Of a stretch of 64,000 bases of DNA, positions 24,830-42,558 are shown piece by piece. Both the position numbers and the translations under genes were made by a program. This stretch comes from Sinohyriopsis cumingii (taxonomy: Eukaryota > Mollusca > Bivalvia > Unionida > Unionidae). The notes under the pieces were generated by a model. It did no database searches, had not been told where the DNA came from, and was given only the letters and a program-made list of their open reading frames with translations. Position 1 is the first letter of the stretch; each line of letters starts with the position of its first letter. The DNA is taken from positions 135,074,579 to 135,138,578 of the forward strand of contig CM068829.1 of the NCBI GenBank assembly GCA_028554795.2, written 5' to 3'.

Positions 24830-25148
24830 AGTAGTGAAGGGGGGCACCCTACGGACAATGGGAATTAGCATTACAAAACCCCTTGGGCAAATCTACGGAC
24901 AATGGAAATTTAACATGGAGAAAAATCGTGGGCAAATCTACGGACAAGGGGAATTAACATGGGAATAAATCGTGGGCCACTTTACGGACAAGGGGAATTT
25001 AACATGGCGATAAATCGTGAGTCACTCTACGGACAAGGGGAATTTAACATGGGATTTTTTTTAAAAAAATTTTTTTAAAAAAAGGGGTAGGCAATTCAAA
25101 GACTATCTCTTTTCGAGAAATATGGCTGGCCCTGAAAAGGGCCTTTGG
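24830..25148. repeat. Left terminal inverted repeat, copy B
   Basis: Nearly identical in reverse to 44170-44486. From the outside: AGTAGTGAAGGGGGGC, five degenerate units of about 44-45 bp each centred on CTACGGACAAGGGGAATTTA and CATGG, then a T/A-rich tract, GGGGTAGGCAATT, the purine-rich element (as TCTCTTTTCGAG) and the stem-loop. The inner limit is CCTTTGG. Confidence 0.95.
25128..25143 (-). terminator. Histone-type 3' stem-loop inside the left TIR, copy B
   Basis: Minus strand GGCCCTTTTCAGGGCC, 22 nt after the stop of the small left-end gene; then AGCCA, ATATTT and CTCGAAAAGAGAT. The outermost leftward transcript therefore ends within the TIR. Confidence 0.88.
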
Positions 25149-25165
25149 TTTATGTTAATATGCCC

Positions 25166-25396
25166 TTAACATAAAGGGCATTTGCGACATCTTCTTTTCC
25201 TTAAACTTCGTCTTACAGCAGGGCCATACATCAGAGTCCTCTTGAGGCAACCTTGTCTCTCTATATAGACTCTTCTTATCCACAGGCTGCTGTTGGTCCT
25301 GTGGACAACGGTCCACTTGGATCGGACATACATGAGCATGTCCGTCCTGAACATCATTGTTGACACAAGGGTTGAAGATTCAACGTCTGTCCACAT
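25166..25396 (-). CDS. Small basic left-end protein, copy B
   Basis: 76 residues, no known family. Starts MWTDVESSTLVSTMMFRTDM, has a WIRRVYIERQGCLKR segment and ends RRSLRKRRCRKCPLC. Homologous to the copy A gene at 12256; frame, start and basic Cys-containing tail are retained while middle residues change, which supports real coding. TATAAATA at 25441-25448 lies 45 nt upstream of the ATG. It is divergent from the Q-rich gene and is the outermost gene at this end. A nuclear, nucleic-acid-binding role is possible from composition only. Confidence 0.72.
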   Translation of the reverse strand: MWTDVESSTLVSTMMFRTDMLMYVRSKWTVVHRTNSSLWIRRVYIERQGCLKRTLMYGPAVRRSLRKRRCRKCPLC

Positions 25397-25615
25397 GTTG
25401 AGGCTCCGAGAATAGGTGAATCAATGCAGTGAACGGCGCTTATTTATAGGGACAGGAAGGATTGAAACGGATTGAGTTCATTCACCAATCCTAACACGCG
25501 TTACAGAATTCAGTCAGCCCGCATCCAATCCGAAGAGAGCAGTCTGTGACGTCACGTAGTCTATATAGATTCGCTAGCGCTTGTGTGCAGTCAATCTATG
25601 CGACAGTGATTCAAC
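25397..25615. promoter_or_regulatory. Divergent promoter with CRE, left-end genes, copy B
   Basis: TATAAATA (minus strand) at 25441-25448 for the leftward gene; TATATAG at 25562-25568 for the rightward gene; a full TGACGTCA palindrome at 25547-25554 and CCAAT boxes near 25486 and 25525. All are retained in copy A. Confidence 0.65.
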
Positions 25616-26191
25616 ATGACGGAAACTCAGAAAACGATCCATTGGGGTGCACCAGCAGGGGAGACTGCCCAAGGGAACTCGGACTTACTTTCAGAAGAGG
25701 TGAATTGGGATTTTGTGGATTTTCTCTCCTCGCAAGAATTTGTTCCGGAACCTTCGTTACCTTCTTCATTACCGCAAGTGGAAAATTTTAGACAGAGACA
25801 GAAAGAAGAATTGGAGAAATTTATACAACGACAAAAGGAAGCGGAACAGGCTTTTCTCCTACAGCAACAGCAACAAGAAGAAGAGGTAAGAAAAAAACAA
25901 CAACAGCAACAGCAAGAAGAAGTAGCAGCAAAGAAACAAGAGGGTGAAAATCAAACGGTCACGGTACTGTTGGACATTTTAGCAGAGTTAAGAAGTCTGA
26001 AACAAATGTATCAGACTTCTTTATCACGACCGAACAGAATACGACCTTCCCGAGCTAAACACGTCAACCCTGTGACTAAGCCTACCGTACCACCCTTAGT
26101 GATTTCAACTCAATCATCATCAACATTACGCAGTCCAGAAGTAGGCCTTGGCCGTGGCAAAGGCATAAGGCAGTTAAAGTTGATTGCTTAA
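25616..26191 (+). CDS. Q-rich coiled-coil protein, copy B
   Basis: 191 residues, intact, unknown family. Contains a short insert after residue 9 absent from copy A, an acidic Trp-containing segment (LLSEEVNWDFVDFL), a coiled coil (RQRQKEELEKFIQRQKEAE), polyglutamine runs, a leucine-rich helix (LLDILAELRSLKQMY) and a basic end. Polyglutamine length differs between copies without loss of frame. Followed 27 nt later by a histone-type stem-loop. Possible transcriptional or scaffold function; nothing specific can be claimed. Confidence 0.75.
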   Translation: MTETQKTIHWGAPAGETAQGNSDLLSEEVNWDFVDFLSSQEFVPEPSLPSSLPQVENFRQRQKEELEKFIQRQKEAEQAFLLQQQQQEEEVRKKQQQQQQEEVAAKKQEGENQTVTVLLDILAELRSLKQMYQTSLSRPNRIRPSRAKHVNPVTKPTVPPLVISTQSSSTLRSPEVGLGRGKGIRQLKLIA

Positions 26192-26218
26192 ACTCACCCT
26201 TTCACTATGAAGAAAAAA

Positions 26219-26234
26219 GGCCCTTTTCAGGGCC
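26219..26234 (+). terminator. Histone-type 3' stem-loop after the Q-rich gene, copy B
   Basis: GGCCCTTTTCAGGGCC preceded by AAAAAA and followed by ACCCA, CATTT and CTCGAAAAGAAAT. This is the closest match in the window to an animal histone mRNA end, including the A-rich 5' flank and ACCCA 3' flank. Confidence 0.92.
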
Positions 26235-26483
26235 ACCCACATTTCTCGAAAAGAAATACAATTTCAATTTGCCAATAACTCAAAAAAACTCACCCATTTT
26301 ACCCTTATAGTACGTGTCTGTGTATGAGTGCGTGAGTGTAGCTTCTTATTTTTGAAATCAAAACTCAAAGACACTTACCTTATATCATTCATTTATTCTT
26401 TTCTCCATTTTTTACAATCCAATTCACAATTCACAACACAACACTTTAATTAAAAGTTCATTGATTTCTTCTTTTCTCCTTGT

Positions 26484-26960
26484 TTAGTCTCTCTGTTTTT
26501 TGAATTTCTTCACCGTCACACTCTTTTCCTCTTCTTCTTCCTCCTCGCTTTCTTCCCTTCTTCTTTTTTTCTCCTGTTTCTTTTTCTTCACCTGTCTTCT
26601 TTCTTCCTCAGAAGAATCCCTCTCTTCCTCCGAAGAATCCCTCTCTTTTTCTTCTGAAGAATTCCTCTTTTCTTCTGACTCCTCTTGTTTCTTTTTTGGG
26701 CAATCTGGAGACCAATGTCCTTTTTCTTGACAATAATAACAGGTATCTTGACTTTTGTCTTTTTTAGTCCCTGTTTTTGTTCTTTTTTGACGGTCTGGAC
26801 ACTCTGAAGACCAATGCCCTTTCTTCTGACAGATATAGCAAGTATCTTGACTTTTATCTCTAAAGGAAGGAGAGTAGTCCGTCGGCTGGTCTGAAGAGAA
26901 TTTTCTAATGACCCCTCGCAAAGCTCTGACGAAACGTTCCATCTGGTTAGTCTCTTCCAT
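26484..26960 (-). CDS. Double CCHC zinc-knuckle protein, copy B
   Basis: 158 residues from the ATG at 26960; an in-frame ATG at 27008 is upstream of the expected transcription start (TATATAAAAGG at 27013-27023). Knuckles CYICQKKGHWSSEC at residues 41-54 and CYYCQEKGHWSPDC at 74-87, linker basic, then SEEERDSSEEE repeats and a KKRRREE end. Both knuckles and the Trp after GH are unchanged in all three copies while the acidic repeat length varies. A single-stranded nucleic acid binding partner for replication or packaging is plausible. An ATTAAA about 35 nt after the stop may direct polyadenylation; there is no histone-type hairpin here. Confidence 0.87.
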   Translation of the reverse strand: MEETNQMERFVRALRGVIRKFSSDQPTDYSPSFRDKSQDTCYICQKKGHWSSECPDRQKRTKTGTKKDKSQDTCYYCQEKGHWSPDCPKKKQEESEEKRNSSEEKERDSSEEERDSSEEERRQVKKKKQEKKRRREESEEEEEEEKSVTVKKFKKQRD

Positions 26961-27094
26961 CGTTGTGCTCGGCTTGAGAGTGAAATGAATAGTGAAAGGA
27001 CAAGACACACACCCTTTTATATACGCTGGTCTGCTATGACTATAAAGTAGTTTATGGTGTTTGAACTTGAGTCATTTGACTTTTTGCTTTCAAG
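26961..27094. promoter_or_regulatory. Divergent PolB / zinc-knuckle promoter, copy B
   Basis: TATATAAAAGG on the minus strand at 27013-27023 and TATAAAG on the plus strand at 27041-27047, about 54 nt before the PolB ATG. TGAGTCA (AP-1-like) at 27068-27074 is kept in all copies. Confidence 0.65.
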
Positions 27095-30000
27095 ATGAAA
27101 CGATCCCATTCATTCGAGAAGAAAGAAGAAGAAAGAAGTAAGAGGCAGAAACGTGATCTATCGCCTCGTACCAGGGCTGAAATCTTGGCACAAATTCATG
27201 CCAGTGATTTTGAAGAGGACATGAGTGAACCAGAATCCGAAACCTCTAAACCAAGTTCACCACCCTTTGTCAACCCTGAAAAGTACTATTCCATTCGAGA
27301 GACGGAAAAGCGCTCCTCTAGAAAATTTAGAACCACGGCTTACAAATACACGGTGAAGTTTAAAGATTTCAAGGCTGAAGTGCCGTTAGAGAAAGCAGAA
27401 GTGTTCATCACCGAGGTGTGGGATTCTTTGCTCACCGAACTCAAGCGACAATGTCAACCCAAAGAAGACGATCGCTTGAGACTTTCCATACAACACGACG
27501 GTTTGAAATCCCCTGTTTGGATCGAGTTTAGCACCCCTGCAGAATTGACTGCTTCCAAAGTCATGGACAAGATTCAACACGTACAACAATCTAATGACCA
27601 GTTTGACATCACCGATGGTAAAGCCACACTGGACATGACCCACGTCTCTCCTCCTCAAGGGACAGGACGCAAAAAGATGTTATTGGTGGACGACCTTCGC
27701 AACACCAAAACAAGTCTCGTCCGAATTGACAACCCTCATGACCAGATGTGCTTAGCCCGTGCCATCGTGGTGGGACGAACCTATGCCAACAAGAACGACA
27801 CGGTAAAATGGAAAAGAACCTGGGACACTATTCAACGTTGGGACCGAGCCAAACAACGAAATGAAGCAGAACTCCTGTTACAACAAGCCGGACTGCCCAA
27901 AGACACACCCTGCGGCATTCCTGAGATGCAAAAATTGCAAGATGTCCTAGCTCCACGATACACCTTGAAAGTGCACCCTCAAGAAGTGCGCGGACCTCTA
28001 TTGTTTCGAGGGCAAGACTTTAAGGACGGAAAATACATTCATGTCTATTATCACGATGACCATTTCGATACGATTACCACTATCACTGGATTCCTGGGAT
28101 ACAGTTATTACTGTGAAAAATGTGACCATGGTTATAACAATCGAGAGCAACACAAGCATTGTGGATCGAAATGCACAGGATGTTTGGCCTCTTCACCCTG
28201 TCTGAGCGAAGAACCAGTGCCTTGTTCAGCTTGTCTGCGCACGTTTGTCAGCCCTACCTGTTACCAACAACATTTGATGACGCAAGGTTCACAGAAGAAA
28301 TGCGCTTGTCAACTGCTGAGATTGTGCTCTACGTGTGAACAAGTCATACGTACCAATAATACCAAGGCACACGTATGTTCAGGAAAGAAAAAATGTCACA
28401 TTTGTCACCACATCGTGGACTTGGAACACCAATGTTACGTGCAAAAATACCAACTCCCACCAGAGAAAGAGGACGGTCACAAGAAGAAAGGCAATTTCAT
28501 CTTTTTCGATTTCGAATGCATGCAAGAGACCGGCATTCACATTCCTAATTTCTGCGTGGCTCATCGAGCGTGCGAGAAGTGCATTCAAGAACCTATCTTT
28601 AGTCATTGCCCTCACTGCAGCAAGATTCCTGGAGGACGTGAAAAAATCTTTCGGGGGCCGAACACGCTAGCCGATTTCGCTCGATGGGTCTTAGACCCCA
28701 TCGACAAGACGTGGAGCCAAGAGGACATCGAACGTTACGGAGATTGTCATCGTCATGCCACAGTGATGGCTCACAATTTCTCCGGATACGATGGACAGTT
28801 TCTTTTGAGGCACTATACGGAACAAGGCACCGAGCGTCCTAAAGTGACTTTGAACGGAGCCAAAATCATTTTCATGCAAGTGGGACAAGTACAGTTTAAA
28901 GATTCGATGAGCTATTTGGCCATGCCTTTGAGTCGAATGCCTAAAACGTTTGGAATGACAGAAATGGCTAAAGGGTACTTTCCACACTTTTTCAATACGG
29001 AAGCCAATCAACACGCCGTTCTACCCCATTTGCCTGAGGCTCACTATTACGACCCCGACAACATGCGTACCGAACAACGAGAAGCTTTCTACGCTTGGTA
29101 CCAGATTCACGCCTCAGACCCTTTCGACTTTCAGGAAGAAATGCTAAAGTATTGTCGTTCCGACGTGGACATTTTACGGCGTTGCTGTGGAAAATTTCGA
29201 GAACTGTTCATGGAACACGGAGGGGTGGATCCTTTGAAAGAAGCTTGCACCATTGCCAAAGCGTGTTCCTTAGTGTATCGACAACGATTCATGCCTGAAA
29301 ACACAGTGGCTGTCATCAGCCCTCAAACGACCCACTTTGTCAAGCGTCAATACTCGGTCAAAGCCCTACGTTGGTTACATTACTTGTGCGACAAGGAAGA
29401 CAAGTGGATTCAGCATGCCCGCAACGGAGGGGGTGAAAAGACCATCGGAACGTATTCGGTCGATGGCTGGGACTTAGAAAACCCCAAGATCGTGTACGAG
29501 TTTAACGGTTGCTTATTTCACGGATGTCCTGTTTGTTACCCTGACCGTGGTACTAAAAATCAGTTTTTGCAACGAACCATGGAAGACTTGTACCAGGACA
29601 CTTGTCAGCGACGCCTAAAGTTGGAACAGCAAGGATACCAAGTGGTGGAAATGTGGGAACACGAGTACGATCACCGTATGAAAACCGATCCCGAGTTTAA
29701 ACGCCTCGTGGAAAGTTACCAGTTCATGGACCCGCTGAACCCGAGGGATAGTTTGTACGGAGGAAGGACCAATGCCACCTGTTTGCTGTACCAAGCCGAC
29801 GAAGAGAAAGGAGAAGAAATGAAATACTTGGACGTGTGTTCGCTGTATCCCTACGTGTGCAAATATTGTCGCTTTCCTGTAGGGCACCCGCAATTGCTGA
29901 CGGAACACATCGACCTGAAAAACATTCGACAATACGAAGGCTTGATCAAGTGCAAAGTTTTGCCTCCCACGAACCTCTACCATCCCGTCTTACCTCACCA

Positions 30001-31147
30001 TTGTCAAGGCAAGCTGATGTTTCCCTTGTGCCGTACTTGTGCCGAAACGTGCAACCAAGACCAACCTTGTCAGCACAGCCAGGAAGAACGGGCCTTGACG
30101 GGAACGTGGGTCAGCGTAGAATTGTTCAAAGCTCTGGACATGGGATACCAACTGTTAGAAGTGTACGAAATTTGCCACTTTCCCAAGACACAACAATACC
30201 GCAAGGGTGACCCTACTCAGAAAGGCATTTTCGCAGACTACGTGGATGCGTTTTTGAAACTGAAGCAAGAAGCCAGCGGCTATCCTTCCTGGTGTCACAC
30301 TCCCGAAGACCAAATACAATTCAAAGAGAAATACTACGAACAAGAAGGCATCACTTTAGACCACATCGAGAAAAACGAAGGCAGGCGATCGTTTGCCAAA
30401 GTGATGTTAAATTGCTTGTGGGGTAAAATGGCACAACGACCGTGTTTACCCAAGACGGAATATTTGACAGAACCTTCCCGCTACTTCCAGATGATTCACG
30501 ATAAAACCAAATACATGAAACACGTGGACGTCGTTCGAGAGAATTTGATCTTGGTCAATTACGAAGAAGATCTGGACTTTGTACAAGACGACCCTTTTGG
30601 AAATGTCATCATTGCGGCTTACGTGACAGCCCATGCTCGCTTAAAATTGTACGAGGCTTTAGAACTGTTAGGGGAACGCGTCCTGTACTTTGACACGGAC
30701 AGTTGCATTTACATCCATCACCCGATTCAACATCACCCTAACATCGAAGGAGACCGTTTAGGAGCCTGGACAGACGAGCATCCCGACGACAAGATTTTAA
30801 GTTTCGTCAGTGGCGGTCCCAAAAATTACGGCTACGAATACCGTGACAAACAAGGAGAAGTGCACACGACGTGCAAAGTGAAAGGACTGACTCTGAATTA
30901 TCGTACCAGTCGAGTGGTCAACTTTGGGGTATTGAAAGAAGCCTTGCAATCGGGAGAGGATGGAAACTTTAAAGTGACCACCTATCAACCGAACAAGATT
31001 GTACGTTTACCCACTCACCACATCGTCAGTCGACCCTTGGAAAAAATCTATCAAATTGTATACCAGAAGCGAGTTCGACTTCCCAATCATTTCACCTTAC
31101 CGTACGGTCACGTCGGTATTGGTCTGTATATAAAAAAGGAACCCTAG
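27095..31147 (+). CDS. POLB: Protein-primed family B DNA polymerase, intact (copy B)
   Basis: 1350 residues, uninterrupted. Residues 1-330 are a basic/acidic N terminus and an unassigned domain. A Cys/His-rich region with several CX2C pairs follows at 338-450. Exonuclease motifs: DFE at 472-474, HNFSGYDGQF near 560, YCRSDVDIL at 686-694. An insert at about 795-860 (EFNGCLFHGCPVC ... VVEMWEHEY) resembles a Vsr-type nuclease core. Polymerase motifs: DVCSLYPY near 913, KVMLNCLWGK near 1102-1111, YFDTDS at 1198-1203. The enzyme replicates the linear genome by protein priming with proofreading. The C-terminal codons overlap a TATATAAAAAAG box for the next gene. Confidence 0.97.
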   Translation: MKRSHSFEKKEEERSKRQKRDLSPRTRAEILAQIHASDFEEDMSEPESETSKPSSPPFVNPEKYYSIRETEKRSSRKFRTTAYKYTVKFKDFKAEVPLEKAEVFITEVWDSLLTELKRQCQPKEDDRLRLSIQHDGLKSPVWIEFSTPAELTASKVMDKIQHVQQSNDQFDITDGKATLDMTHVSPPQGTGRKKMLLVDDLRNTKTSLVRIDNPHDQMCLARAIVVGRTYANKNDTVKWKRTWDTIQRWDRAKQRNEAELLLQQAGLPKDTPCGIPEMQKLQDVLAPRYTLKVHPQEVRGPLLFRGQDFKDGKYIHVYYHDDHFDTITTITGFLGYSYYCEKCDHGYNNREQHKHCGSKCTGCLASSPCLSEEPVPCSACLRTFVSPTCYQQHLMTQGSQKKCACQLLRLCSTCEQVIRTNNTKAHVCSGKKKCHICHHIVDLEHQCYVQKYQLPPEKEDGHKKKGNFIFFDFECMQETGIHIPNFCVAHRACEKCIQEPIFSHCPHCSKIPGGREKIFRGPNTLADFARWVLDPIDKTWSQEDIERYGDCHRHATVMAHNFSGYDGQFLLRHYTEQGTERPKVTLNGAKIIFMQVGQVQFKDSMSYLAMPLSRMPKTFGMTEMAKGYFPHFFNTEANQHAVLPHLPEAHYYDPDNMRTEQREAFYAWYQIHASDPFDFQEEMLKYCRSDVDILRRCCGKFRELFMEHGGVDPLKEACTIAKACSLVYRQRFMPENTVAVISPQTTHFVKRQYSVKALRWLHYLCDKEDKWIQHARNGGGEKTIGTYSVDGWDLENPKIVYEFNGCLFHGCPVCYPDRGTKNQFLQRTMEDLYQDTCQRRLKLEQQGYQVVEMWEHEYDHRMKTDPEFKRLVESYQFMDPLNPRDSLYGGRTNATCLLYQADEEKGEEMKYLDVCSLYPYVCKYCRFPVGHPQLLTEHIDLKNIRQYEGLIKCKVLPPTNLYHPVLPHHCQGKLMFPLCRTCAETCNQDQPCQHSQEERALTGTWVSVELFKALDMGYQLLEVYEICHFPKTQQYRKGDPTQKGIFADYVDAFLKLKQEASGYPSWCHTPEDQIQFKEKYYEQEGITLDHIEKNEGRRSFAKVMLNCLWGKMAQRPCLPKTEYLTEPSRYFQMIHDKTKYMKHVDVVRENLILVNYEEDLDFVQDDPFGNVIIAAYVTAHARLKLYEALELLGERVLYFDTDSCIYIHHPIQHHPNIEGDRLGAWTDEHPDDKILSFVSGGPKNYGYEYRDKQGEVHTTCKVKGLTLNYRTSRVVNFGVLKEALQSGEDGNFKVTTYQPNKIVRLPTHHIVSRPLEKIYQIVYQKRVRLPNHFTLPYGHVGIGLYIKKEP
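31127..31138 (+). promoter_or_regulatory. TATA box embedded in the PolB 3' end
   Basis: TATATAAAAAAG, encoding the last residues of PolB, 55 nt before the ATG at 31193. The same word is at the end of PolB in copy C. Confidence 0.6.
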
Positions 31148-31192
31148 GCAAAATCGATAGTTCATTGTGACTACCAAGACCGAGCGAACAAG

Positions 31193-31832
31193 ATGAATAC
31201 TTTCAGAGAAACACAGAACAAGTTGTTTAGAAGGGCACAATTCAAGTGTGAGGCTTCGGAAGTGGAATGCGATTGTGAGCCTTGCGATGGGTACGATGCT
31301 GTACCTTGTGACCTGAGTGATGCCGTAAAGCATCATGGGAACTTTAGTGCCCCTACCCCTATCATGGAAAGTGAAGCTGTGCGTGTCAAACCTGTGGGAT
31401 GCGAAAGTGATGCCGCTCGTCCTCTTGGACATTTTACTGGGTTTCGTTTTAAAGGGGAATGTTCACCTTCACGTCTACCCCCCCTACGGATGTCATCCAG
31501 CCCTGAGCAAACTCCTACCCATGTCACTCAACCCTCATCGAAACGAACCTGTGAAAGACGAATATTCGTTCCCTGTGCGTTTGTCGGAATACTGCGACTT
31601 TGAAAATCGTCTTCAATCGTTCAAAGGAAAATGGCCTAAGTATCTGGGAGGACCGACCCCCGAAGAATTAGCCAGAGCCGGATTTTTCTACTTGGGCGAA
31701 GGAGATAAAGTCAAGTGCTTCAGTTGCGGTGTGTCACTTCACCACTGGGAACCGCAAGATTCGGCCTACGTAGAACATGCTCGATGGTCACCGAATTGTC
31801 ATTACTTACCCTTAGTGGGACCGAGATATTGA
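31193..31832 (+). pseudogene. Cys-rich protein with one BIR (IAP-type) domain, frameshifted in copy B
   Basis: The N-terminal part (MNTFRETQNKLFRRAQFKCE, then a CDCEPCDGYDAVPCD cluster) and the C-terminal BIR lie in two frames; a C-run at about 31478 is one base longer than the matching place in copy C, where the same join is in frame. The BIR has the full zinc signature CX2CX16HX6C within KVKCFSCGVSLHHW ... HARWSPNC. BIR proteins of this type inhibit apoptosis by binding caspases or other partners; baculovirus and entomopoxvirus IAPs are viral examples. No RING is present. The domain was probably taken from a host gene. Antiapoptotic activity is inferred. Confidence 0.85.
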
Positions 31833-31860
31833 AGTAACTTCTTACCATAATAATCTGTTC

Positions 31861-32316
31861 ATGGATACTTTACAAGAGAACATTTGTGCTTTGCCTGTGG
31901 AGTTGAGAGAACGCATTTATCGAGAACTGGTCAAAATACAAGTGAAACGTAAAGAACAATTGCATCCGTTACGTCACCGGTGTTTGAACCACTGGTGCCT
32001 GAAAGCTATACAAGGATTGATTCAATTGAAAGTGTTCCATCGGACAGACATTGATCAACGATCCTCTAGTTTTCAAAAGGATTGGTTTGGTATGGACGAT
32101 TGTAGTTACATCATTGTAAACGTACTGCATCGAATTCCAGAGGAAGAGTTAACGAATTACCAACATCTTGAACACAATGTCAACTTAGTGAAAGAGGAAA
32201 CTTCTGAACGAATTGTAATGTGTAGATTAGTGACTCAACGATTTAAATTCGACACTGAAGTGAAACCATGTTTGTGCAAAGAGTACATTTCTTGTGTCAG
32301 ACCAAAGAGGATTTAG
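31861..32316 (+). CDS. MDTL-family accessory protein 1, copy B
   Basis: 151 residues, intact, unknown family. Starts MDTLQENICALPVELRERIY, an F-box-like LPxELRxxI motif, followed by RELVKIQVKRKEQLHPLRHR, which is nearly identical to the next gene. The rest diverges but keeps a pattern of short hydrophobic segments and a final Cys-containing stretch. The first 120 nt of the two genes, including the ATTCATGGATACTTTAC start context, are almost the same, showing a tandem duplication. F-box identity is a weak call: if right, the protein could bring substrates to SCF ubiquitin ligases. Confidence 0.65.
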   Translation: MDTLQENICALPVELRERIYRELVKIQVKRKEQLHPLRHRCLNHWCLKAIQGLIQLKVFHRTDIDQRSSSFQKDWFGMDDCSYIIVNVLHRIPEEELTNYQHLEHNVNLVKEETSERIVMCRLVTQRFKFDTEVKPCLCKEYISCVRPKRI

Positions 32317-32328
32317 TATGACCTATTC

Positions 32329-32847
32329 ATGGATACTTTACAAGAGAACATTCGTGCTTTGCCTGTGGAGTTGAGAGAACGCATTTACCGAGAGCTGGTC
32401 AAAATACAAGTGAAACGTAAAGAACAATTGCATCCGTTACGTCACCAGATCTTTAACCACTGGTACCTGAAGGGTATAAGAGAACTGATTCGTCAGAAAT
32501 TGTTTCAGTGGTCAGACCTTGTTCAATACTTCCAGGCCCCCGATGATTCACGTGTTGATCATTTTGGTTACTTCGAGATTCACCTAGAGCAACCCATTGA
32601 GGAAGACGAGGTAAAGGATTACCAACATATTTTACGTGGAATCTACTTAGCGGAAGAGGAAACTTCTAATCGAACTCTGACGTTTCGGTTACAGTATGCA
32701 AGATTTACATTACCCACTGGAAAACGAACATCACTGGCTAGAAAGTACGTGTATTCTTTTCGAAACAAAGAGACTATAAAAACAGGCAGCTATGCCACGA
32801 CTTATGTCGTATGTAATCCAACAGATTCCGTGGAAGGAACTCAATGA
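32329..32847 (+). CDS. MDTL-family accessory protein 2, copy B
   Basis: 172 residues, 12 nt after gene 1. The first 45 residues repeat gene 1, then diverge: NHWYLKGIRELIRQKLFQW, FGYFEIHLE, an acidic segment, AEEETSNRTLTFRLQYARF and a Lys/Arg-rich end. Its last 56 nt overlap the start of the next gene in another frame. The homologue in copy C is broken by a stop. Conserved spacing of hydrophobic and aromatic residues beyond the shared N terminus supports a folded domain of unknown type. Confidence 0.65.
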   Translation: MDTLQENIRALPVELRERIYRELVKIQVKRKEQLHPLRHQIFNHWYLKGIRELIRQKLFQWSDLVQYFQAPDDSRVDHFGYFEIHLEQPIEEDEVKDYQHILRGIYLAEEETSNRTLTFRLQYARFTLPTGKRTSLARKYVYSFRNKETIKTGSYATTYVVCNPTDSVEGTQ

Positions 32848-33016
32848 CCATATTCAAACCGTGGATCATTACCATCGATTATTGCAAGAACTGTATCCAT
32901 TCAATTTGGGACGACAAGTGGTGTGTGTCTTAGTGACTTGTTTTCTGGGATTTCGTTTACCAGCCGATTCTTTGTGGACTCTTTACGATCAGTACTTACC
33001 ACCTCCATGGCCTTAA
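32792..33016 (+). CDS. Small accessory protein (MPRLMSYVI), copy B
   Basis: 74 residues. It begins inside the MDTL-2 gene and ends 10 nt into the next gene, both overlaps out of frame. Sequence PWKELNDHIQTVDHYHRLLQ and GRQVVCVLVTCFLGFRLPAD is retained almost unchanged in copy C, where the frame runs on to 112 residues. No family recognised. The hydrophobic middle (VVCVLVTCFLGF) could be a membrane or core helix. Confidence 0.55.
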   Translation: MPRLMSYVIQQIPWKELNDHIQTVDHYHRLLQELYPFNLGRQVVCVLVTCFLGFRLPADSLWTLYDQYLPPPWP

Positions 33017-33350
33017 ATGGTCACGAAAAACTCCTTTTGCTCAAAGCCTTGCGGTTTCATCTGGATACTTCTCGACCTCAACAGGAAAAAAAGATTCGTC
33101 AACTTTTAGCTACCCAAGACGTGTATGACGATGTGTGTGTGTAGCTTGTGACTTACACCCTCATTGGACAGATGTTCGTGACTGGAAAAAGGGGGGTTTT
33201 GAGGCTTGGACCCAAGAAGTGGCCCAGTATGCACAAGAGTTGTTCAAGGAAAAAAGTTACTTTTCAACCTGTGTTAGTGACGGTGCCAGAAGAACCCGTC
33301 ACCGAGAACAACCACTCGCTTCAGGACAGGACTGTCATGGACATTCCTGA
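33007..33350 (+). pseudogene. MALNGHEK accessory gene, broken by a GT repeat expansion, copy B
   Basis: From the ATG at 33007 the frame gives MALNGHEKLLLLKALRFHLD and stops at 33144; one extra GT unit in the GTGTGTGTGT run near 33135 relative to copy C shifts it, and the remainder (CVACDLHPHWTDVRDW, FEAWTQEVAQYAQELFKEK) continues in the next frame to 33350. In copy C it is an uninterrupted 107-residue gene. Unknown function. Confidence 0.6.
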
Positions 33351-33558
33351 AAGGTCATTCCGGGAGGACACTTGTGTGACAATACCTCATGTAGAGACTG
33401 TAAGAACATTACACACTGTCCCTAGGACATCTTGGTTAACCAAAACATGTTGTACAAACACTTGTTTTTATTCCACTTTGATCGCTTTGCTGTGTTTTAT
33501 ATTCCTGTACATCACTATTTGGGTTGTATGTATTTTTGTCTTTCGTGTTCATATTTGA
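33172..33558 (+). CDS. Accessory protein with C-terminal membrane anchor, copy B
   Basis: 128 residues from the ATG at 33172. Segments KKVTFQPVLVTVPEEPVT and RSFREDTCVTIP are shared with copies A and C; two length differences against copy C are multiples of three, which supports coding. A hydrophobic helix (STLIALLCFIFLYITIWVVCIFVF) ends the protein, so it is probably tail-anchored. The first part overlaps the MALNGHEK gene in another frame. AATAAA at 33565 follows directly and is itself followed by the ATPase TATA box. Confidence 0.65.
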   Translation: MFVTGKRGVLRLGPKKWPSMHKSCSRKKVTFQPVLVTVPEEPVTENNHSLQDRTVMDIPERSFREDTCVTIPHVETVRTLHTVPRTSWLTKTCCTNTCFYSTLIALLCFIFLYITIWVVCIFVFRVHI

Positions 33559-33564
33559 AACATT

Positions 33565-33595
33565 TAATAAACGTGTTCTGAAAAAAGTATATAAA
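33565..33595 (+). promoter_or_regulatory. Overlapping poly(A) signal and ATPase TATA box
   Basis: AATAAA at 33566-33571 ends the accessory block; TATATAAA at 33588-33595 starts the late block, 48 nt before the ATPase ATG. The same pair is seen in copies A and C. Confidence 0.7.
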
Positions 33596-33642
33596 CTCTT
33601 GTCTTGTTTGTTTTTCGTGTCACAAGTGACATTTCTCACACC

Positions 33643-34386
33643 ATGGCTACCTCTGCTGTCTCTGCTCCCTCTTCCTCTACTGTCAAAGTCATCGACGAAC
33701 ACTTAGATCGTGCCAGTTGGGAGGCTTTGTATCTTCGCCATCCCTTTAACATGCTCATTGCTGGACCTAGCGGTTCAGGCAAAACCGAATTCGTCAAACG
33801 TTTGATCGAGCATAAACATGATTTGATCGATCGGCCCCCTCAACGGATCGTGTGGTGTTACAAAGAGTGGCAATCGGCGTACAGCCTTTTGCGAGAAAGT
33901 CAAGGCGATTCCATCGTGTTTGTGGAAGGCATTCCTAAAGAAGACGACGGCATCGTCTCTGACTCCCGTCTAACCCATTTGGTCATTTTCGACGACATGT
34001 TAGAAGAAGACGAAGAAGAAATTAAATTGTGGTTCACGCGCAAAGGGCATCACCGTAATGCCAGTGTCGTTTACATCACCCAAAATTTGTTTCAACAAAG
34101 TAAAGCCCATCGCACCATCAGTCTCAATGCGCATTACGTGGTCTTGTTTCAAAGCCCTCGAGATAAATCGCAAGTGCAAGTCTTAGCCAAACAGTTAGGA
34201 ACGCCTTGGCTGACTCAGGCGTACGACGATGCCACTCAAACGCCACACGCCTATTTACTCGTCGATTTGAAACCTACCACTCCCGAGGATTTGCGATTTT
34301 GTACCCACTTGTTTCACCACTGGTGCCAAGACGGAGGGCCTGTCCTGTACACATCTCCGTCCTCGACTTCATTTCACTCCCCATGA
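33643..34386 (+). CDS. ATP: DNA-packaging ATPase (FtsK/HerA-type), copy B
   Basis: 247 residues, intact; ATG in ACCATGG. An upstream in-frame TTG is not a likely start. Ser/Thr-rich N terminus, P-loop GPSGSGKT at 41-48, Walker B LVIFDDML at 113-120, then RKGHHRNASVVYITQNLFQQ carrying a sensor-type Gln/Asn, and a C-terminal domain. It should power translocation of the linear genome into preformed capsids. First gene of the late block; its stop lies 9 nt from the next gene's TATAAAAA box. Confidence 0.95.
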   Translation: MATSAVSAPSSSTVKVIDEHLDRASWEALYLRHPFNMLIAGPSGSGKTEFVKRLIEHKHDLIDRPPQRIVWCYKEWQSAYSLLRESQGDSIVFVEGIPKEDDGIVSDSRLTHLVIFDDMLEEDEEEIKLWFTRKGHHRNASVVYITQNLFQQSKAHRTISLNAHYVVLFQSPRDKSQVQVLAKQLGTPWLTQAYDDATQTPHAYLLVDLKPTTPEDLRFCTHLFHHWCQDGGPVLYTSPSSTSFHSP

Positions 34387-34442
34387 AAAAAATCTATAAA
34401 AACCTCAGACCCTTTTTCGTCTGTCTCACACTCAGTGCGAAC

Positions 34443-35380
34443 ATGACGTCCCTTCAGTCGCATCTTCCCGTCAAATTGATTCGTGCCTTGTATGGCATCA
34501 GTCGAGAAAAAGATCCACAAACACGAGCTCGTGTCTTAGAAGCTAGCCTCAAAGAAGTCTTACGATGGTTCTGGTGACGGCACGTCAATTACTCCAAGGA
34601 ATCATTCAGATTCCTCATCAAACCCAACGCTTTTTCGATCGAAACAAAGTCGCTTTGGTCCAACTGGCCGATCCCCGCATCGACACTCAAACCAAAAAAC
34701 AAATCATTTTGAAACCTGGAGGGAGCGGTACTCTAGGAGGGGTCATCATTCGCTCACTCTTAAGATGGGATCCTAATGCCCCCAAAGTTATCCCTAAGAC
34801 AAAAGTTCAACGAAGCCCCAAGAAGAAAAAGACCAGGTCCCCAAAGAGAAGAACTTCTCCAGTGGCGGGACCCTCCTCTTACCAGACACCACCCCGAAAA
34901 AAGAAAAGAAGCCCCCAGAAAAAGAAACAGAGAAAAAGTCCTCAGAAAAAGAAAAGTCCACAGAAGAAAACTAGTCGCAAGAGAGGCACTGCGGCCAGGA
35001 CGCAGCCTTACACTCGCAAACCACGACCTGCCACAGCGTCTCCGACAGCCTCACGTTTGTCCACTTCTCCGTTGATGTCACCAGGAACTGAAGAGTACTT
35101 GGAGACGTTGATCACACCAAGAACTTCTCCGTTGATGACCCCCAAAAGAACTTCCCCAGTGGCAGGACCTTCCAATTTAGCGGCAGTGGCTGCTGCTCAC
35201 AAAGTACCTTCTCCCAAAATCAAAGTCCATGAAAGATCGGGCATGTTACAAAGTTTACTGGATTTGTCCAAGCAAGAACTGGCTCGATTTAGTCCGTTAC
35301 GTACCCCTGCACGACGTGTCATGCCTGTCCTCAAACTGATACGACGTAAAGACAATCAATGGCGACGCGTTCCAGTATAA
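34443..35380 (+). pseudogene. Large basic SP/RK-rich virion-type protein, frameshifted, copy B
   Basis: The first 42 codons (MTSLQSHLPVKLIRALYGIS ... LRWF) and the rest (VTARQLLQGIIQ onward) are in different frames because one base is missing at about 34573 relative to copy A. The rest keeps the GGSGTLGGVIIRSLLRW segment, SPKKKKTRSPKRR-type repeats longer than in copy A, and the LARFSPLRTPARR end. A translation start at 34565 could still give a 271-residue protein lacking the N terminus. Confidence 0.78.
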
Positions 35381-35386
35381 AAAAGG
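35376..35386 (+). promoter_or_regulatory. TATA box overlapping the upstream stop codon
   Basis: TATAAAAAAGG contains the TAA stop of the basic-protein gene and lies 53 nt before the ATG at 35439. A similar GATAAAAAGG at 35821-35830 overlaps the next gene's stop and precedes the ATG at 35875. Confidence 0.55.
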
Positions 35387-35438
35387 CCTGTGACCGAGTA
35401 GGATATCAGTGTTTTTTGGTGCTCCTGAAGACTCAAAG

Positions 35439-35825
35439 ATGTCACCCTCCAGAAAACCCCAAGGAAAGAAAAGGAAAGGACTGCCACCACGTTTAGCCAA
35501 ACATGGGGACATGTTATCTGTCCTGTCCAAAGCTTCTCCACCCCTACGAAAAAAACTCATTCAAACGGCCTCCAAAGAGGTCATCGATACCGTGTGCGAA
35601 TGTTGTTTGAACGTTTTGAAAGGCACGATCCCTTTGTCCAAACATCAGAAACAATGCTTAGGCAAACATCGTCACGTTCTTCGGAAAATGGTTCAAAAGA
35701 AAATTCCCATTCGTCAAAAAAAGAAGATGTTGGTCCAACGTGGAGGCATTTTACCTCTCTTGTTAGGCCCCATACTGAAAGGAGTCTTGGGAACCATGTT
35801 GGGAGGACTCGTGGGAGCAAGATAA
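35439..35825 (+). CDS. Small basic virion-type protein with Gly-rich hydrophobic tail, copy B
   Basis: 128 residues from the first ATG (an in-frame GTG upstream is ignored). Basic start (MSPSRKPQGKKRKGLPPRL), helices around PPLRKKLIQTASKEVIDTV, a CECCLN segment, a KRR-like region, then LVQRGGILPLLLGPILKGV and GTMLGGLVGAR. Proteins with this helix-basic-glycine tail pattern recur in animal Polintons and adintoviruses. A virion core or membrane-lytic role similar to adenovirus pVI is a speculation from composition and position. Confidence 0.75.
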   Translation: MSPSRKPQGKKRKGLPPRLAKHGDMLSVLSKASPPLRKKLIQTASKEVIDTVCECCLNVLKGTIPLSKHQKQCLGKHRHVLRKMVQKKIPIRQKKKMLVQRGGILPLLLGPILKGVLGTMLGGLVGAR

Positions 35826-35874
35826 AAAGGCCTTCGGAAGTCCCAAGATCTCAGAATCGACCCCTGACAACCCC

Positions 35875-36510
35875 ATGGAAGGACGAAAACTAGCTTTAGT
35901 GCCTTACAAACGATGGATGGAATACCATCGGTGGCAAGAACAACGCACCCCGCATTTACCTCCCAATCCCAATTTGAGCGAGATGTCCCAGTTACAACAC
36001 GAATTGCAGTCCTTGATGGATCGCCAAGATTTGTCCGAAACAGAAAAATCGCAAAAGTACGGTCAACTCTTGCAACGACTGCAACTCTTTCACCAGAAAG
36101 CTTTAGACGAAACAGCTCTACCCACTTTGAAAGATTTTAAGACCTTGATGAAAAGTCCAACACCATCACCAGTACCAGTACCGGTACCAGTGGTCAAGAC
36201 AGAAAAAGGAAAAGAAGAAGAAGAAGAAGGGTTTCAAACTCCACCAGAAAAAGTACGCAAGTTAACAACACCACCTACCTCCAGAATTGGATGGATTAAA
36301 AAGATGATGGCCACCCCTTCTTCATCACAAGAGAAAAAGAAAGTGAAGACAGAAGTGAAGACAGAAGTGAAACAAGAACCGATATCCCCCGCTCAAACAT
36401 CCTTCTCCTCTTCGACACCTATTGCTGGCCGCACACGCAAAGCATTGCAATCCAAGAAAATACCCCAAGAGAAAAAGAGTCGCCTCTTCCAGGAGTGGGT
36501 GCCTTATTAA
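35875..36510 (+). CDS. Proline/lysine-rich virion-type protein, copy B
   Basis: 211 residues; the only intact copy of the three. N-terminal MEGRKLALVPYKRWMEYHRW, a coiled-coil segment (LSEMSQLQHELQSLMDRQDL, then KYGQLLQRLQLFHQKAL), a PVPVPVPV tract that varies in length between copies, a polyglutamate run, KVKTEVKTEVKQEPISP (two perfect KTEV repeats, with a KxE-type sumoylation-like motif) and the end KSRLFQEWVPY. No known domain. Its position suggests a minor virion or scaffold protein. Confidence 0.72.
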   Translation: MEGRKLALVPYKRWMEYHRWQEQRTPHLPPNPNLSEMSQLQHELQSLMDRQDLSETEKSQKYGQLLQRLQLFHQKALDETALPTLKDFKTLMKSPTPSPVPVPVPVVKTEKGKEEEEEGFQTPPEKVRKLTTPPTSRIGWIKKMMATPSSSQEKKKVKTEVKTEVKQEPISPAQTSFSSSTPIAGRTRKALQSKKIPQEKKSRLFQEWVPY

Positions 36511-36531
36511 CACACCAACCAACACAAAAAA

Positions 36532-37644
36532 ATGGAAAAAGTCTTAGCCAGCATTTACTACGATCCCTCGCATCCTGCAGGTTACGCAGGAGTTCAAAAA
36601 TTGTATCGTGCTGCCAAAACTCGACTGAAAAGTCTCCGTTTACCTCAAGTGCAACGATGGTTACAAGAACAAGCTACCTACACTTTACACAAACCCATTC
36701 GACGCAAGTTTGCCAGAAGTCGCACCCGAGTGGAAGGCATCGATCATCAATGGCAAGCCGATTTAGCCGATGTCTCTCATTTGGCCAGCTACAATCGTGG
36801 CTACAAATATTTGTTTTGTGTCATCGACGTCTTTTCCAAATTTGCCTGGGTCGTGCCCTTGACTTCCAAATCGAGCAGCGAGTTAGTGCGAGCCCTGCAA
36901 CGGGTGTTGAAACAAAGCGGTCGTCGCCCTCTTCGATGGCAAACGGACAAAGGCACCGAATTTCTGAACCAAGCTTTCCAAAAAGAATTAAAGAAACGTG
37001 ACATTCATTTTTTTGCCACCGAGAATCCCGAAACCAAAGCCAGCATCGTGGAACGTTTTCAACGCACTTTTAAAGAACGCATGTGGAAATATTTTACGCA
37101 TCACCACACTCTGAAGTACATCGACATCTTACCGCACCTGGTGCAAGCGTACAACCAATCTTACCATCGAAGCATCGGACGTGCCCCGCAAGACGTGACT
37201 CCCGACAACGAAGTGCTGGTGTTTGAGCGCCTGTTCGGTACGTCCCCGACGAGGGCTGTCCCCAAGAAAAGTGGAGAGTTGGCCGTAGGAGATTGGGTGC
37301 GCATTGGCAAAACCAAACGCACTTTCGACAAAGGTTACTTACCTAACTGGACGACCGAATTGTTTCGCGTCACTGGACGAGTGCATGGCCGTCATCCTGC
37401 CGTCTATAAATTGGAAGACATGAACGGAGAAGTACTCAAAGGAACGTTTTATTTGCCCGAGTTACAACGTGTCACCAAAAAAGAAGACGACGTGTACGAC
37501 ATCGAAAGCATTCTCGAACGCAGAACCCGTAAAGTGGGCAAACGACGTGTCAAAGAAGTCAAAGTACGTTGGAAAGGATATCCACCCAGTTTCGATTCTT
37601 GGATCGACGCTTCGCAAGTCATCGACTATAAAAAGAAGAAGTGA
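36532..37644 (+). CDS. INT: Retroviral-type integrase with chromodomain, copy B
   Basis: 370 residues, intact. Catalytic core: D77 in WQADLAD, D139 in QTDKGTEF and E174 in ASIVERF, giving a DDE triad with about 35 residues between the last two. SH3-like GDWVRIGKTKRTF near 265-280. Chromodomain at about 318-366 (VYDIESILERR, VRWKGYPPSFDSWI), ending in a basic KKKK. The N-terminal HHCC zinc finger of retroviral integrases is not obvious. The enzyme joins the TIR ends to target DNA; the GTTGTG duplication around this copy is its expected product. Confidence 0.96.
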   Translation: MEKVLASIYYDPSHPAGYAGVQKLYRAAKTRLKSLRLPQVQRWLQEQATYTLHKPIRRKFARSRTRVEGIDHQWQADLADVSHLASYNRGYKYLFCVIDVFSKFAWVVPLTSKSSSELVRALQRVLKQSGRRPLRWQTDKGTEFLNQAFQKELKKRDIHFFATENPETKASIVERFQRTFKERMWKYFTHHHTLKYIDILPHLVQAYNQSYHRSIGRAPQDVTPDNEVLVFERLFGTSPTRAVPKKSGELAVGDWVRIGKTKRTFDKGYLPNWTTELFRVTGRVHGRHPAVYKLEDMNGEVLKGTFYLPELQRVTKKEDDVYDIESILERRTRKVGKRRVKEVKVRWKGYPPSFDSWIDASQVIDYKKKK

Positions 37645-37649
37645 CCATC

Positions 37650-38066
37650 ATGCCCTTTCACTCAGCAGACGCAGCTACGTCGACCACTCCTTCTTCCCCT
37701 AGTTCTTCTGTGCAAGATTTACAATAACAACCCTTGTGGGTGTGGTGTGGAGAACGTGTGCCTAAAACGCAAATCGTCTTTTTCTGCCAAATCTTCGTGG
37801 TGTATTGTGTCATCGGGGCAGCCATCGCCAATTTGAGTTTGCAACAAGGAGACAAACAATTGTGGACCATTTTATTGAGCAGTTGCATCGGTTACCTGCT
37901 TCCCAATCCCTCCCTGAAATTCTCCTCGAACGGGAACGTTGTGTCCAGTGCCAGTGCCAGTCACCACTCCAACAACAACCACAACCAGAACCCCATTTTG
38001 GGCGGAGACACACCTCTGACATCCACTAATATTCCCTCGGACAGCCACAGAACTCTGGAATTATGA
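37650..38066 (+). pseudogene. Small two-helix membrane protein with nonsense codon, copy B
   Basis: ATG 5 nt after the integrase stop. Codon 26 is TAA (37725-37727) where copies A and C have a sense codon. Beyond it the frame stays open through the two hydrophobic helices (IVFFCQIFVVYCVIGAAIAN and LWTILLSSCIGYLLP) to a TGA that overlaps the penton ATG as ATGA. This overlap is the likely original arrangement, suggesting coupled translation of the two proteins. Confidence 0.75.
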
Positions 38067-39004
38067 GTCACCAAAATCAATTTTACTTAACCTTACCCAG
38101 TGACAGTTCCATGGAGGTGTTTCCCAACAACACGTTGTGCTGTTACACGGCCAAATTACCTCAAGCCATCCCCTTAGATCACGAAGCCCATTGGGAAGTG
38201 GCTTTAGTGGAAATGATTCACCCAACCCAAGTCCACAATGTCATTCCCAATCAAAATTATTTTAAGGTAGAAGTTCATGACAAACAATTGCAAGATGAGT
38301 TGGATAAGATTGGCACATATACCAATAAAACCTATGATGACAAAACTAAAACGTGGACCTACAACTTGTCCATTCTCCCAGGCTATTATTTCAGTGGTCA
38401 TCATTTGGTCAGCGCCATAGCCTCCAAGTTTAATGGCGTGTTTCTGAAAGCTTTGGGGAATGTCCAAAAAAGTGTCACCCTGGAATACCACAAAATAGCT
38501 CGTCGCTTTCTGATGAAATTTTCTGAGGGGTCCAAAAAATTCATGTCTTTCTTATTTTGTCCTGAATTGTTTGACATATTGGGCGGTGACATGGAGATGA
38601 GGAAGATAGGAGAACAAAAAAAATCCCCCGAATTACCAGTCATTTATGACAACGACTCTTTTGCCAAGTATTTTCGTTTCCCGGTAGAACTGAACCAAGG
38701 ACTGAATTTGATCTTCGTGTACTCCGATGTGGTGGAATACAACGTGGTGGGACACACCTCCGTGCCGTTACTGCGTGTCATTCCTTTCAAAGTGGATTCT
38801 GCCACAAACGCTGACGAGGAAGGTGGAAACACTTATCACGTCCACCGCGAATTTGTCCATCCTCACTATTTGCCTGTCAGCAAGTCGTATTTGGACACGG
38901 TCAACATTACTATAAAAGGAGATTTGGGACAAAATATTCCATTCACCAAAGGAAAAGTCACGGTGAAACTCCATTTTCGAAAACGGTTCTCTCACGACTC
39001 GTAA
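38063..39004 (+). CDS. Penton-like minor capsid protein, copy B
   Basis: 313 residues, the only intact copy. Pattern MSHQNQFYLTLPSDSSMEVF, PNNTLCCYTAKLPQAI and HWEVALVEMIHPTQV is typical of the single-jelly-roll minor capsid protein of Polintons/adintoviruses, expected to form the vertex pentamers. Residues about 55-105 and 140-190 differ strongly from copies A and C, whereas the flanks (GYYFSGHHLVS; LNLIFVYSDVVEYNVVGHTS) are almost constant: variable exposed segments. An internal TATAAAAGG at 38911 is 101 nt before the pX-like ATG. Confidence 0.85.
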   Translation: MSHQNQFYLTLPSDSSMEVFPNNTLCCYTAKLPQAIPLDHEAHWEVALVEMIHPTQVHNVIPNQNYFKVEVHDKQLQDELDKIGTYTNKTYDDKTKTWTYNLSILPGYYFSGHHLVSAIASKFNGVFLKALGNVQKSVTLEYHKIARRFLMKFSEGSKKFMSFLFCPELFDILGGDMEMRKIGEQKKSPELPVIYDNDSFAKYFRFPVELNQGLNLIFVYSDVVEYNVVGHTSVPLLRVIPFKVDSATNADEEGGNTYHVHREFVHPHYLPVSKSYLDTVNITIKGDLGQNIPFTKGKVTVKLHFRKRFSHDS

Positions 39005-39011
39005 GTAAGTC

Positions 39012-39431
39012 ATGTATCCAGTGTACCGAGGGGTGGCTCGACAACGAGGACACGGTTTAGGAGACATGTTAAAATCGGCCTTTCGTTCGGTGGCCCCAGT
39101 GTTGAAACCGATGGTGACACGAGGATTGCACGCCTTGAAAGATGCGGCACTGACGCAAGGCAAAGAATTTCTCCAAAATGTCATCATCGACAAACAAAAC
39201 CCTAAAGAAGCCTTCATGAGGGCAGGCAAAAATGTCTTGCTGCAAACGGGCAAAGACATTTTAGGCCGACGAGACACACCTATAAATGCCCTGCACGCTA
39301 CCGAGTCAAGCATTCAGCAAGGACAAGGCAGAAAGAGACGACGAAGAAGAAAACACCCTTTCACCAGACTTCAAGCGAGAAAGGCCAAGAAAAGAAGAAC
39401 CGTTCGAGACTTAGACGTTTTCGATTATTGA
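39012..39431 (+). CDS. pX-like basic virion protein, copy B
   Basis: 139 residues, intact. MYPVYRGVARQRGHGLGDML, then VAPVLKPMVTRGLHALKDAA, NVIIDKQNPKEAFMRAGKNV and a tail with RKRRRRRKHPF and RKAKKRRTVRDLDVFDY. Nearly the same in all copies apart from a break in copy C. Probably a genome-condensing or capsid-linking protein, by comparison with adenovirus-type core proteins; not proven. Confidence 0.72.
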   Translation: MYPVYRGVARQRGHGLGDMLKSAFRSVAPVLKPMVTRGLHALKDAALTQGKEFLQNVIIDKQNPKEAFMRAGKNVLLQTGKDILGRRDTPINALHATESSIQQGQGRKRRRRRKHPFTRLQARKAKKRRTVRDLDVFDY

Positions 39432-39444
39432 AACACAGAACAAA

Positions 39445-40746: not shown

Positions 40747-40752
40747 AAAGCC

Positions 40753-41241
40753 ATGGAAGACTGTTATCCCTCTTTACCTAGTGGAGAAACTTTGGAGATG
40801 GAATGTGAGGAGACCGTGGAAAAAGAAGAAGAAGTGATCATGATGAAATCGAGATGGCCAGAACAAGAAGCCCATTTAGTCTCCTGTTTTGCCAAACATT
40901 TGGTCGACAAAATGACGGAATTGATCAAGAAAAATTGCTATGGATGTCAAAACGATCATCCCAGTCAAATTCAACACGATAAATGCCTGATGTTAAGTCA
41001 AGAAGAAAAATTGGACGAGTATCTGGACGAAGCTTGGAGTCTCATCTCGAACAAAGACGTGTTGCACCAGTGGTATAAAGACTTGCGTGAACATTCTTGT
41101 CCACCATTAACCACTCAAGAGATCCATCGTATCGAAGCTCTCCTGAATCAGAGTGAGGAAACAGAACGGATAACCGTTTATTCGTCAGACATTTTCAAGC
41201 AAAAAGTCAGGATCGAATTGACGACGTATTATTACCTGTGA
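40753..41241 (+). CDS. Cys/His protein between capsid and protease, copy B
   Basis: 162 residues, intact, unknown function. Acidic N terminus, then EAHLVSCFAKHLVDKM and a tight Cys/His cluster (CYGCQNDHPSQIQHDKC) that could bind zinc, followed by MLSQEEKLDEYLDEAW and a C-terminal LTTQEIHRIEALLNQ. It starts 6 nt after the capsid stop and ends 23 nt before the protease. A protein with this CYGC-HPSQ signature often accompanies capsid and protease genes in animal Polintons, so a maturation or regulatory role is possible. Confidence 0.75.
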   Translation: MEDCYPSLPSGETLEMECEETVEKEEEVIMMKSRWPEQEAHLVSCFAKHLVDKMTELIKKNCYGCQNDHPSQIQHDKCLMLSQEEKLDEYLDEAWSLISNKDVLHQWYKDLREHSCPPLTTQEIHRIEALLNQSEETERITVYSSDIFKQKVRIELTTYYYL

Positions 41242-41264
41242 AGAAGAAAAAAACACACAAAACA

Positions 41265-42369: not shown

Positions 42370-42401
<32 letters not shown>

Positions 42402-42528: not shown

Positions 42529-42558
42529 AAAAAGAATGCCATAGCAAAACAAAAAAAC

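Follow-up and report, generated by a model that had tools for sequence, protein, structure and literature searches.

Genes at the ends of a Polinton in the genome of Sinohyriopsis cumingii appear to be built like, and expressed through, the replication-dependent histone pathway of their host, a reading to which we assign a probability of about 0.85 on the strength of sequence comparison. Stem-loop 3' ends are regarded as the mark of metazoan replication-dependent histone mRNAs. In the window, the 64,000-nt stretch of DNA analysed here, such ends follow Polinton genes that are not histone genes. A preliminary description had proposed these histone-type 3' ends from the stem-loops; the proposal is supported, both by constraint on the signals at sites outside the locus selection and by their presence in a second, divergent Polinton (L085). 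To the stem-loops we add a downstream element and, at the right end, host histone promoter elements, neither of which that description contained.

The window holds three copies of the element, of which copies 1 and 3 are only partly contained in it. The full-length Polinton is copy 2 (24830-44486, 19,657 nt), which lies between 6-bp target-site duplications of GTTGTG (24824-24829 and 44487-44492). The Pfam matches of copy 2 include a family B DNA polymerase (PolB; PF03175, 9.8e-41), an rve integrase (PF00665, 3.6e-14) with a chromodomain (PF00385), an A32-like packaging ATPase (PF04665, 32.3 bits against a cut-off of 22.8) and a zinc-knuckle protein; candidate ORFs for capsid proteins and an adenovirus-like protease gave no match in the same Pfam search. 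Named proteins closest to those studied here come mostly from bivalves, those of PolB from Ostrea edulis (50-51%). The assignment to the Polintons follows from PolB, the integrase with chromodomain, the A32-like ATPase, the TIRs and the 6-bp target-site duplication, all of which are shared with Polinton/Maverick elements and adintoviruses, whereas the end genes with what appear to be histone-type control signals set this element apart from them. A protein with a BIR (inhibitor of apoptosis) domain is encoded directly after PolB (31335-31832 (+); PF00653, 85.6 bits). In all three copies a CCHC zinc-knuckle gene points toward the left-end gene (26484-26960 (-), 10748-11218 (+) and 63187-63654 (+)), and its stop is followed by ATTAAA in every copy and additionally by AATAAA in two.

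Five genes of copy 2 end in stem-loops: two at the left, encoding 76 aa (outward) and 191 aa, and three at the right, each an outward-reading cassette. Eight of eight stem-loop ORFs scanned with Pfam contained no histone domain, nor anything above any curated cut-off, and the idea that the element carries histone genes was rejected on this result.

The eleven stem-loops listed in the preliminary description are all present in the sequence. It had given each a 6-bp stem with a TTTC loop; nine are perfect, but 45461(-) and 46409(-), both in copy 3, are mismatched. In the former the fifth pair of the stem is C-A, in the latter the second is T-C, which makes the fixed second pair of that account slightly overstated. 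The four intact window sites that were folded reach -9.0 to -11.4 kcal/mol, these two -7.0 and -3.7 kcal/mol, respectively. Sense orientation at 22-44 nt past a stop codon holds for ten of the sites but not for 12517(+), which lacks a recognisable frame ending within that range; the frame ending before 45461(-) is itself broken further up. The ACCCA/AGCCA 3' flank is found at 9/11 sites, with ACCCC at 47292(-) and ACCCT at 45461(-) instead. The double change of the outer pair from G-C to A-T in cassettes 1 and 2, earlier taken as compensatory, is real, but it goes back to a single event in the ancestry of paralogous cassettes and, taken alone, is weak evidence for selection on structure; as a proof of structure it was set aside. 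Core genes lack the stem-loop as described, which holds for 16/16 other genes examined in copy 2. Their supposed use of AATAAA/ATTAAA applies to three of these 16 within 200 nt of the stop but not to the other 13, and the hexamer is also present in 3/7 stem-loop genes checked for it.

The histone 3' stem-loop model RF00032, run on the window, scores six of the eleven sites at 35.6-41.2 bits and so passes its gathering score there, while the rest fall under the 34-bit cut-off. In a permissive scan of 42000-47800, four more of the eleven were matched, at 43367(+), 42554(+), 45436(-) and 47268(-), with 29.3-31.7 bits (E 3e-6 to 2.4e-5), and the stem-loop at 46409(-) gave a weak match at 46384(-) (19.9 bits, E 0.078). 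The features are collected in Table 1.

Table 1. Stem-loops, associated genes and control elements of the Polinton copies in the window
Feature	Position	Strand	Remarks
TIRs, copy 2	element 24830..44486	.	start with AGTAGTGAAG; first 60 nt of both TIRs identical; 5'-AG end
76-aa left-end ORF	25166..25396	-	reads outward, ends 22 nt before stem-loop; no Pfam family
Stem-loop, 76-aa left-end gene	25128..25143	-	RF00032, pattern match
191-aa left-end gene	25616..26191	+	non-histone; 20 protein-database relatives, 58-97% identity
Stem-loop, 191-aa gene	26219..26234	+	27 nt past stop; RF00032 41.2 bits
Downstream element GAAAAGA, 191-aa gene	26248..26254	+	13 nt past stem; compare host histones
Histone-type promoter element TTTTCCTTCACGTCCGCGC, cassette 1	42080..42098	+	sequence match
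Cassette 1 ORF, 120 aa	42166..42528	+	non-histone (Pfam)
Cassette 1 stem-loop, A-U outer pair	42559..42574	+	downstream element 42588-42594
H4-type promoter element	42871..42889	+	42872-42892 is 21-mer identical to host H4 promoter
24-mer GATGTTTTCCATCACGTCCGCGCT, cassette 2	42945..42968	+	identical to host H2B promoter
Cassette 2 ORF, 102 aa	43032..43340	+	non-histone (Pfam)
Cassette 2 stem-loop	43372..43387	+	downstream element 43401-43407
Cassette 3 promoter element	43619..43637	+	second copy, one mismatch, 43689-43707
Cassette 3 ORF, 130 aa	43760..44152	+	non-histone (Pfam)
Cassette 3 stem-loop	44175..44190	+	downstream element 44204-44210
Copy 3 cassette 3 stem-loop, one mismatch	45461..45476	-	frame broken; promoter elements 45958-45976, 46026-46044 (-)
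Copy 3 cassette 2 stem-loop, degraded, second pair broken	46409..46424	-	ORF 46460-46834; promoter elements 46898-46916, 46972-46990 (-)
Copy 3 cassette 1 stem-loop	47292..47307	-	downstream element at 14 nt; ORF 47352-47717; promoter element 47783-47801 (-)
Copy 3 left-end gene stem-loop	63913..63928	-	gene extends beyond window
Copy 1 left-end gene stem-loop	11471..11486	-	ORF 11512-12036, 174 aa
Copy 1 outward end gene stem-loop	12517..12532	+	gene frame broken

Past the stem, the window sites carry the downstream element GAAAAGA at a spacing of 13 nt (14 nt at 47292(-)). For comparison with the host, the whole 2.9-Gb genome carrying the window was searched. The host histone genes are arranged in tandem, each repeat of about 8.3 kb containing H4, H2B, H2A, H1 and H3; the named protein nearest to this H1 is from Mytilus coruscus (68%, with 37% of the query covered). 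Each of the two repeats examined (L029 and L030) contains five RF00032 matches, which in L029, the repeat whose genes were listed, come after the five histone genes. GAAAAGA stands 13 nt past the stem in host H4, H2B and H3 and 14 nt past it in H1, and H2A has GAAAAGG at 14 nt. Across the 106 perfect stem-loops of 48 genomic loci and the window, AAAAGA occurs at the 13-nt spacing in 97, against a background frequency of 0.0017; four of the nine exceptions, 47292(-) included, have it one base further, and in five it is absent or changed. Because these loci were picked by RF00032 and the model reaches over the downstream element, we repeated the count without the 48 locus-defining stem-loops, and AAAAGA was at the same offset in 44/49. 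The likeness to metazoan histone mRNA 3' ends is thus borne out by the RF00032 matches together with host histone ends that have the same downstream element and spacing. A further conserved block, TTTGCCAAT, lies about 33 nt past each stem-loop, after the downstream element (e.g. window 42607-42615), and host H2A carries TTTTGCCA at a similar place. The histone array shows irregular intervals and some inverted units on host contigs C801, C815, C991, C1031 and C1058, which may mark insertions or assembly joins.

The right-end genes carry host histone promoter elements as well. Each right-end cassette has one or two elements of H4, H2B or H1 type 60-150 nt before the start codon. When the window is compared with the histone repeat, a 24-mer of the host H2B promoter recurs unchanged at 42945(+) and 46897(-), as does a 21-mer of the host H4 promoter at 42872(+) and 46969(-); the longest match in 20 shuffles of the histone repeat was 17. 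A close form of the element is present in the promoter of host H1 and an inverted form in that of H2A, and the patterns used did not find it in the H3 promoter. Allowing up to three mismatches, ten sites of the motif TTTTCNNTCACGTCCGCGC are present in the window where 0.14 would be expected, and all ten are upstream of right-end stem-loop genes, in sense. The left-end genes and the 16 other copy 2 genes checked have no GTCCGCGC within 250 nt, and the bare heptamer GTCCGCG has a single occurrence elsewhere in the window, inside PolB at 27989(-). The left-end gene pair combines the same 3' end with another promoter (CCAAT boxes, TGACGTCA and TATA); two CCAAT boxes and TGACGTCA lie in the promoter region common to the pair, 25397-25615. 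The right-end motif resembles the HINFP site (ACGTCCGC) and may be such a site. According to PMC5706932 and PMC3771687, HiNF-P binds the H4 element in mammals and brings NPAT and RNA polymerase II to it.

Compared with metazoan replication-dependent histone genes, the Polinton end genes are alike in the stem-loop, the cleavage-site flank and the downstream element with its spacing; they are likewise short single-frame genes, with promoter elements common to host H2B, H1 and H4. They differ in encoding no histone domain and in sitting in a mobile element, outside the histone array. This combination bears on the alternative that the hairpin has its role in the DNA, or in RNA as a generic stem, serving as a transcription terminator or as a replication or packaging signal independently of SLBP and U7. 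While the palindromic nature of the hairpin and the position of all sites near element ends would suit such a role, it would require no histone loop or flanks, no downstream element at fixed spacing and no upstream histone motifs, and the sites are always in gene sense wherever a frame is readable. We consider a generic hairpin very unlikely.

As the genomic loci were picked by their best RF00032 match, column conservation was measured only at the other stem-loop genes of each locus, aligned without requiring a stem-loop (25/48 left genes, 3/23 of cassette 1 and 0/23 of cassette 2 were dropped from the alignments). In cassette 1 (20 copies), conservation was 0.947 for the stem-loop, 0.980 for ACCCA and 0.955 for the downstream element, compared with 0.593 just upstream, 0.646 in the coding region, 0.698-0.711 further down and 0.800 in the spacer. 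The corresponding signals of cassette 2 (23 copies) reached 0.938, 0.983 and 0.939, with 0.701 just upstream, 0.730 coding, 0.722-0.727 further down and 0.748 in the spacer. The left gene shows a weaker contrast than the cassettes: its stem-loop, ACCCA and downstream element are at 0.943, 0.948 and 0.961, and its flanks at 0.929 upstream, 0.867 coding, 0.843-0.870 further down and 0.817 in the spacer. The local conservation pattern follows the functional letters, and part of the signal conservation may reflect recent spread or gene conversion.

These values also speak to the alternative that the signals are relics of capture, pieces of histone promoters and 3' ends that were picked up and are now functionless neutral passengers. 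Acquisition from several histone genes would fit the host-identical 24-mer and 21-mer and the two promoter types in one cassette, and neutral passengers could decay as the sites at 45461(-) and 46409(-) have done. However, in cassettes 1 and 2 conservation of the control elements among copies far exceeds that of the flanks, coding and non-coding alike; the signals stand in sense and in order; and the 3' signal, which five copy 2 genes carry, is found again in a divergent Polinton. A relic is therefore improbable, and expression through the histone pathway is the better account of these end genes.

The signals are abundant in the genome. The stem-loop 20-mer GCCCTTTTCAGGGCYACCCA has 28,808 exact occurrences and the promoter 23-mer GATGTTTTCNNTCACGTCCGCGC 31,228, and the reversed control of each has 0. 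The stem-loops of the two histone repeats examined never fit the 20-mer, so the 28,808 sites are not histone arrays. Given that one element has up to five such sites, the counts suggest that the Polinton family has expanded enormously, to thousands of copies. Among at least 75 genome-wide RF00032 places, 48 loci were inspected, and 48/48 match the element copies of the window over at least 1,257 nt. The arrangement of the two signals was examined in the first part of contig C1, where the promoter motif stands 411-848 nt upstream on the same strand in 48 of the 97 stem-loops among the matches listed, random placement giving a mean of 0.62; on the opposite strand it was upstream in 0/97. By stem-loop type, the motif was upstream of 45/55 of the T type, taken to be cassettes 1 and 2, and of 3/42 of the C type, again among the C1 matches listed. 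A same-strand promoter motif within 430 nt downstream, found at 37 of the 97, is expected if the next cassette follows.

Such numbers could alternatively indicate a sponge or decoy, in which the main effect of the many copies is to soak up SLBP, U7 or histone promoter factors, thereby disturbing the host histone supply or chromatin on the element DNA. Tens of thousands of exact genome copies of both motifs would serve this purpose; yet the signals frame ORFs at ordinary gene distances, and a sponge requires neither a coding frame nor a matched promoter. We find this alternative hardly credible. A chance palindrome was likewise rejected, given the RF00032 matches, the host-identical promoter words, the genome counts against reversed controls, the conservation and the spacing of the downstream element.

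Further Polintons were sought with a polymerase alignment, which returned two Polinton-like contigs in bacterial MAG records, L084 (PBYI01000028.1) and L085 (CALIZB010000033.1), presumably eukaryotic contamination. L085 has a PolB 38% identical to that of the window in the best segment and a chromo-integrase whose chromodomain falls just below the cut-off. Its end gene encodes a C2H2 zinc-finger protein and has an RF00032 match of 35.8 bits, with the stem 28 nt past the stop, a TATC loop and a purine-rich stretch downstream. The terminal repeat CCMTTGTCC, beside which this gene lies, occurs five times in the terminal 434 nt of L085 and 0 times in the rest; in the window there are five in each of the three element ends examined and 0 in 26300-42000. 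Before the L085 end gene, 7874-7959 contains three TGACGTCA and an inverted CCAAT box, and GTCCG is absent from the 200 nt before the gene. L085 and the Polinton of the window are thus alike in an end gene with an RF00032 match, the CCMTTGTCC terminal repeats, TGACGTCA and the inverted CCAAT box, and they differ in PolB (38%), the C2H2 end gene, the TATC loop and the lack of GTCCG before the gene.

Beyond the host genome, RF00032 matches L085, but at gathering score it matches neither L084 nor any of 22 viral loci from IMG/VR. The latter include six distant loci with PolB relatives, which were obtained with the alignment query (a single PolB query found no relatives in IMG/VR); the other contigs came from stem-loop patterns (2 and 8) and a promoter pattern (6). 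The signal on the L085 end gene means that the 3' signal is not confined to the Polinton family of the window, its frequency not being inferable from two contigs.

On the proposed mechanism, host histone transcription factors (HINFP/NPAT-like) would read the right-end promoters at the G1/S transition. We infer that SLBP would bind the Polinton stem-loops and that the transcripts would be cleaved there: U7 snRNP would pair with GAAAAGA, CPSF73 would cut after ACCCA, and the mRNAs would end without poly(A). The end-gene mRNAs would then be stable and translated mainly in S phase, and the early or accessory proteins would be confined to the window of host DNA replication, when the polymerase of the element could best use host nucleotides. 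Counting against this best reading are the left-end genes without the promoter element, the small contrast of the left gene, the damaged sites at 45461(-) and 46409(-), and the absence of a match at gathering score in L084 and in the six viral loci with PolB relatives; the host searches for U7 and SLBP described below weigh on the same side. We give even odds to a broader picture in which a virus-like gene set stands under the host histone programme, with SLBP/U7 3' ends at both ends and histone promoters at the right end. Its early functions would be locked to S phase, the element might be drawn to histone locus bodies, the arrangement would be old in one branch of animal Polintons/adintoviruses, and the tens of thousands of copies may affect the host histone mRNA supply.

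If the end genes are indeed expressed in this way, the replication-dependent histone pathway would be open to takeover by a parasite, here by non-histone genes of a DNA virus-like element, and Polintons would gain a testable cell-cycle logic. The elements would also show independently which letters are required by SLBP and U7, and the end-gene transcripts would go unseen in RNA data obtained by poly(A) selection. Full-text literature searches, mostly at title level and with subscription papers largely outside their reach, returned no earlier report of Polinton end genes under histone-type control among the matches listed. By term search, the words histone and stem-loop never occur in the main text of a paper on vertebrate Mavericks (PMC8097293), and the adintovirus passages of PMC11071296 concern histone-like proteins, not mRNA ends.

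The host factors themselves were sought in the genome. Pfam PF15247 for SLBP gave nothing above threshold and four weak sub-threshold matches. For U7 snRNA, a genome search with RF00066 gave none at E 0.001; the best weak match, at 29.3 bits against a cut-off of 34 bits, had E 0.27 across the genome and 0.00029 in a 716-base set, and is without a clear complement to GAAAAGA. Pattern searches for U7 in the host turned up single sites and one family of repeats, in none of which the 3' stem was convincing. The dispersed repeat family (L072, L074 and L100-L103) has TCTTTTCTAAATTTGTCTGG or variants of it, which look like a U7 5' end followed by an Sm site.
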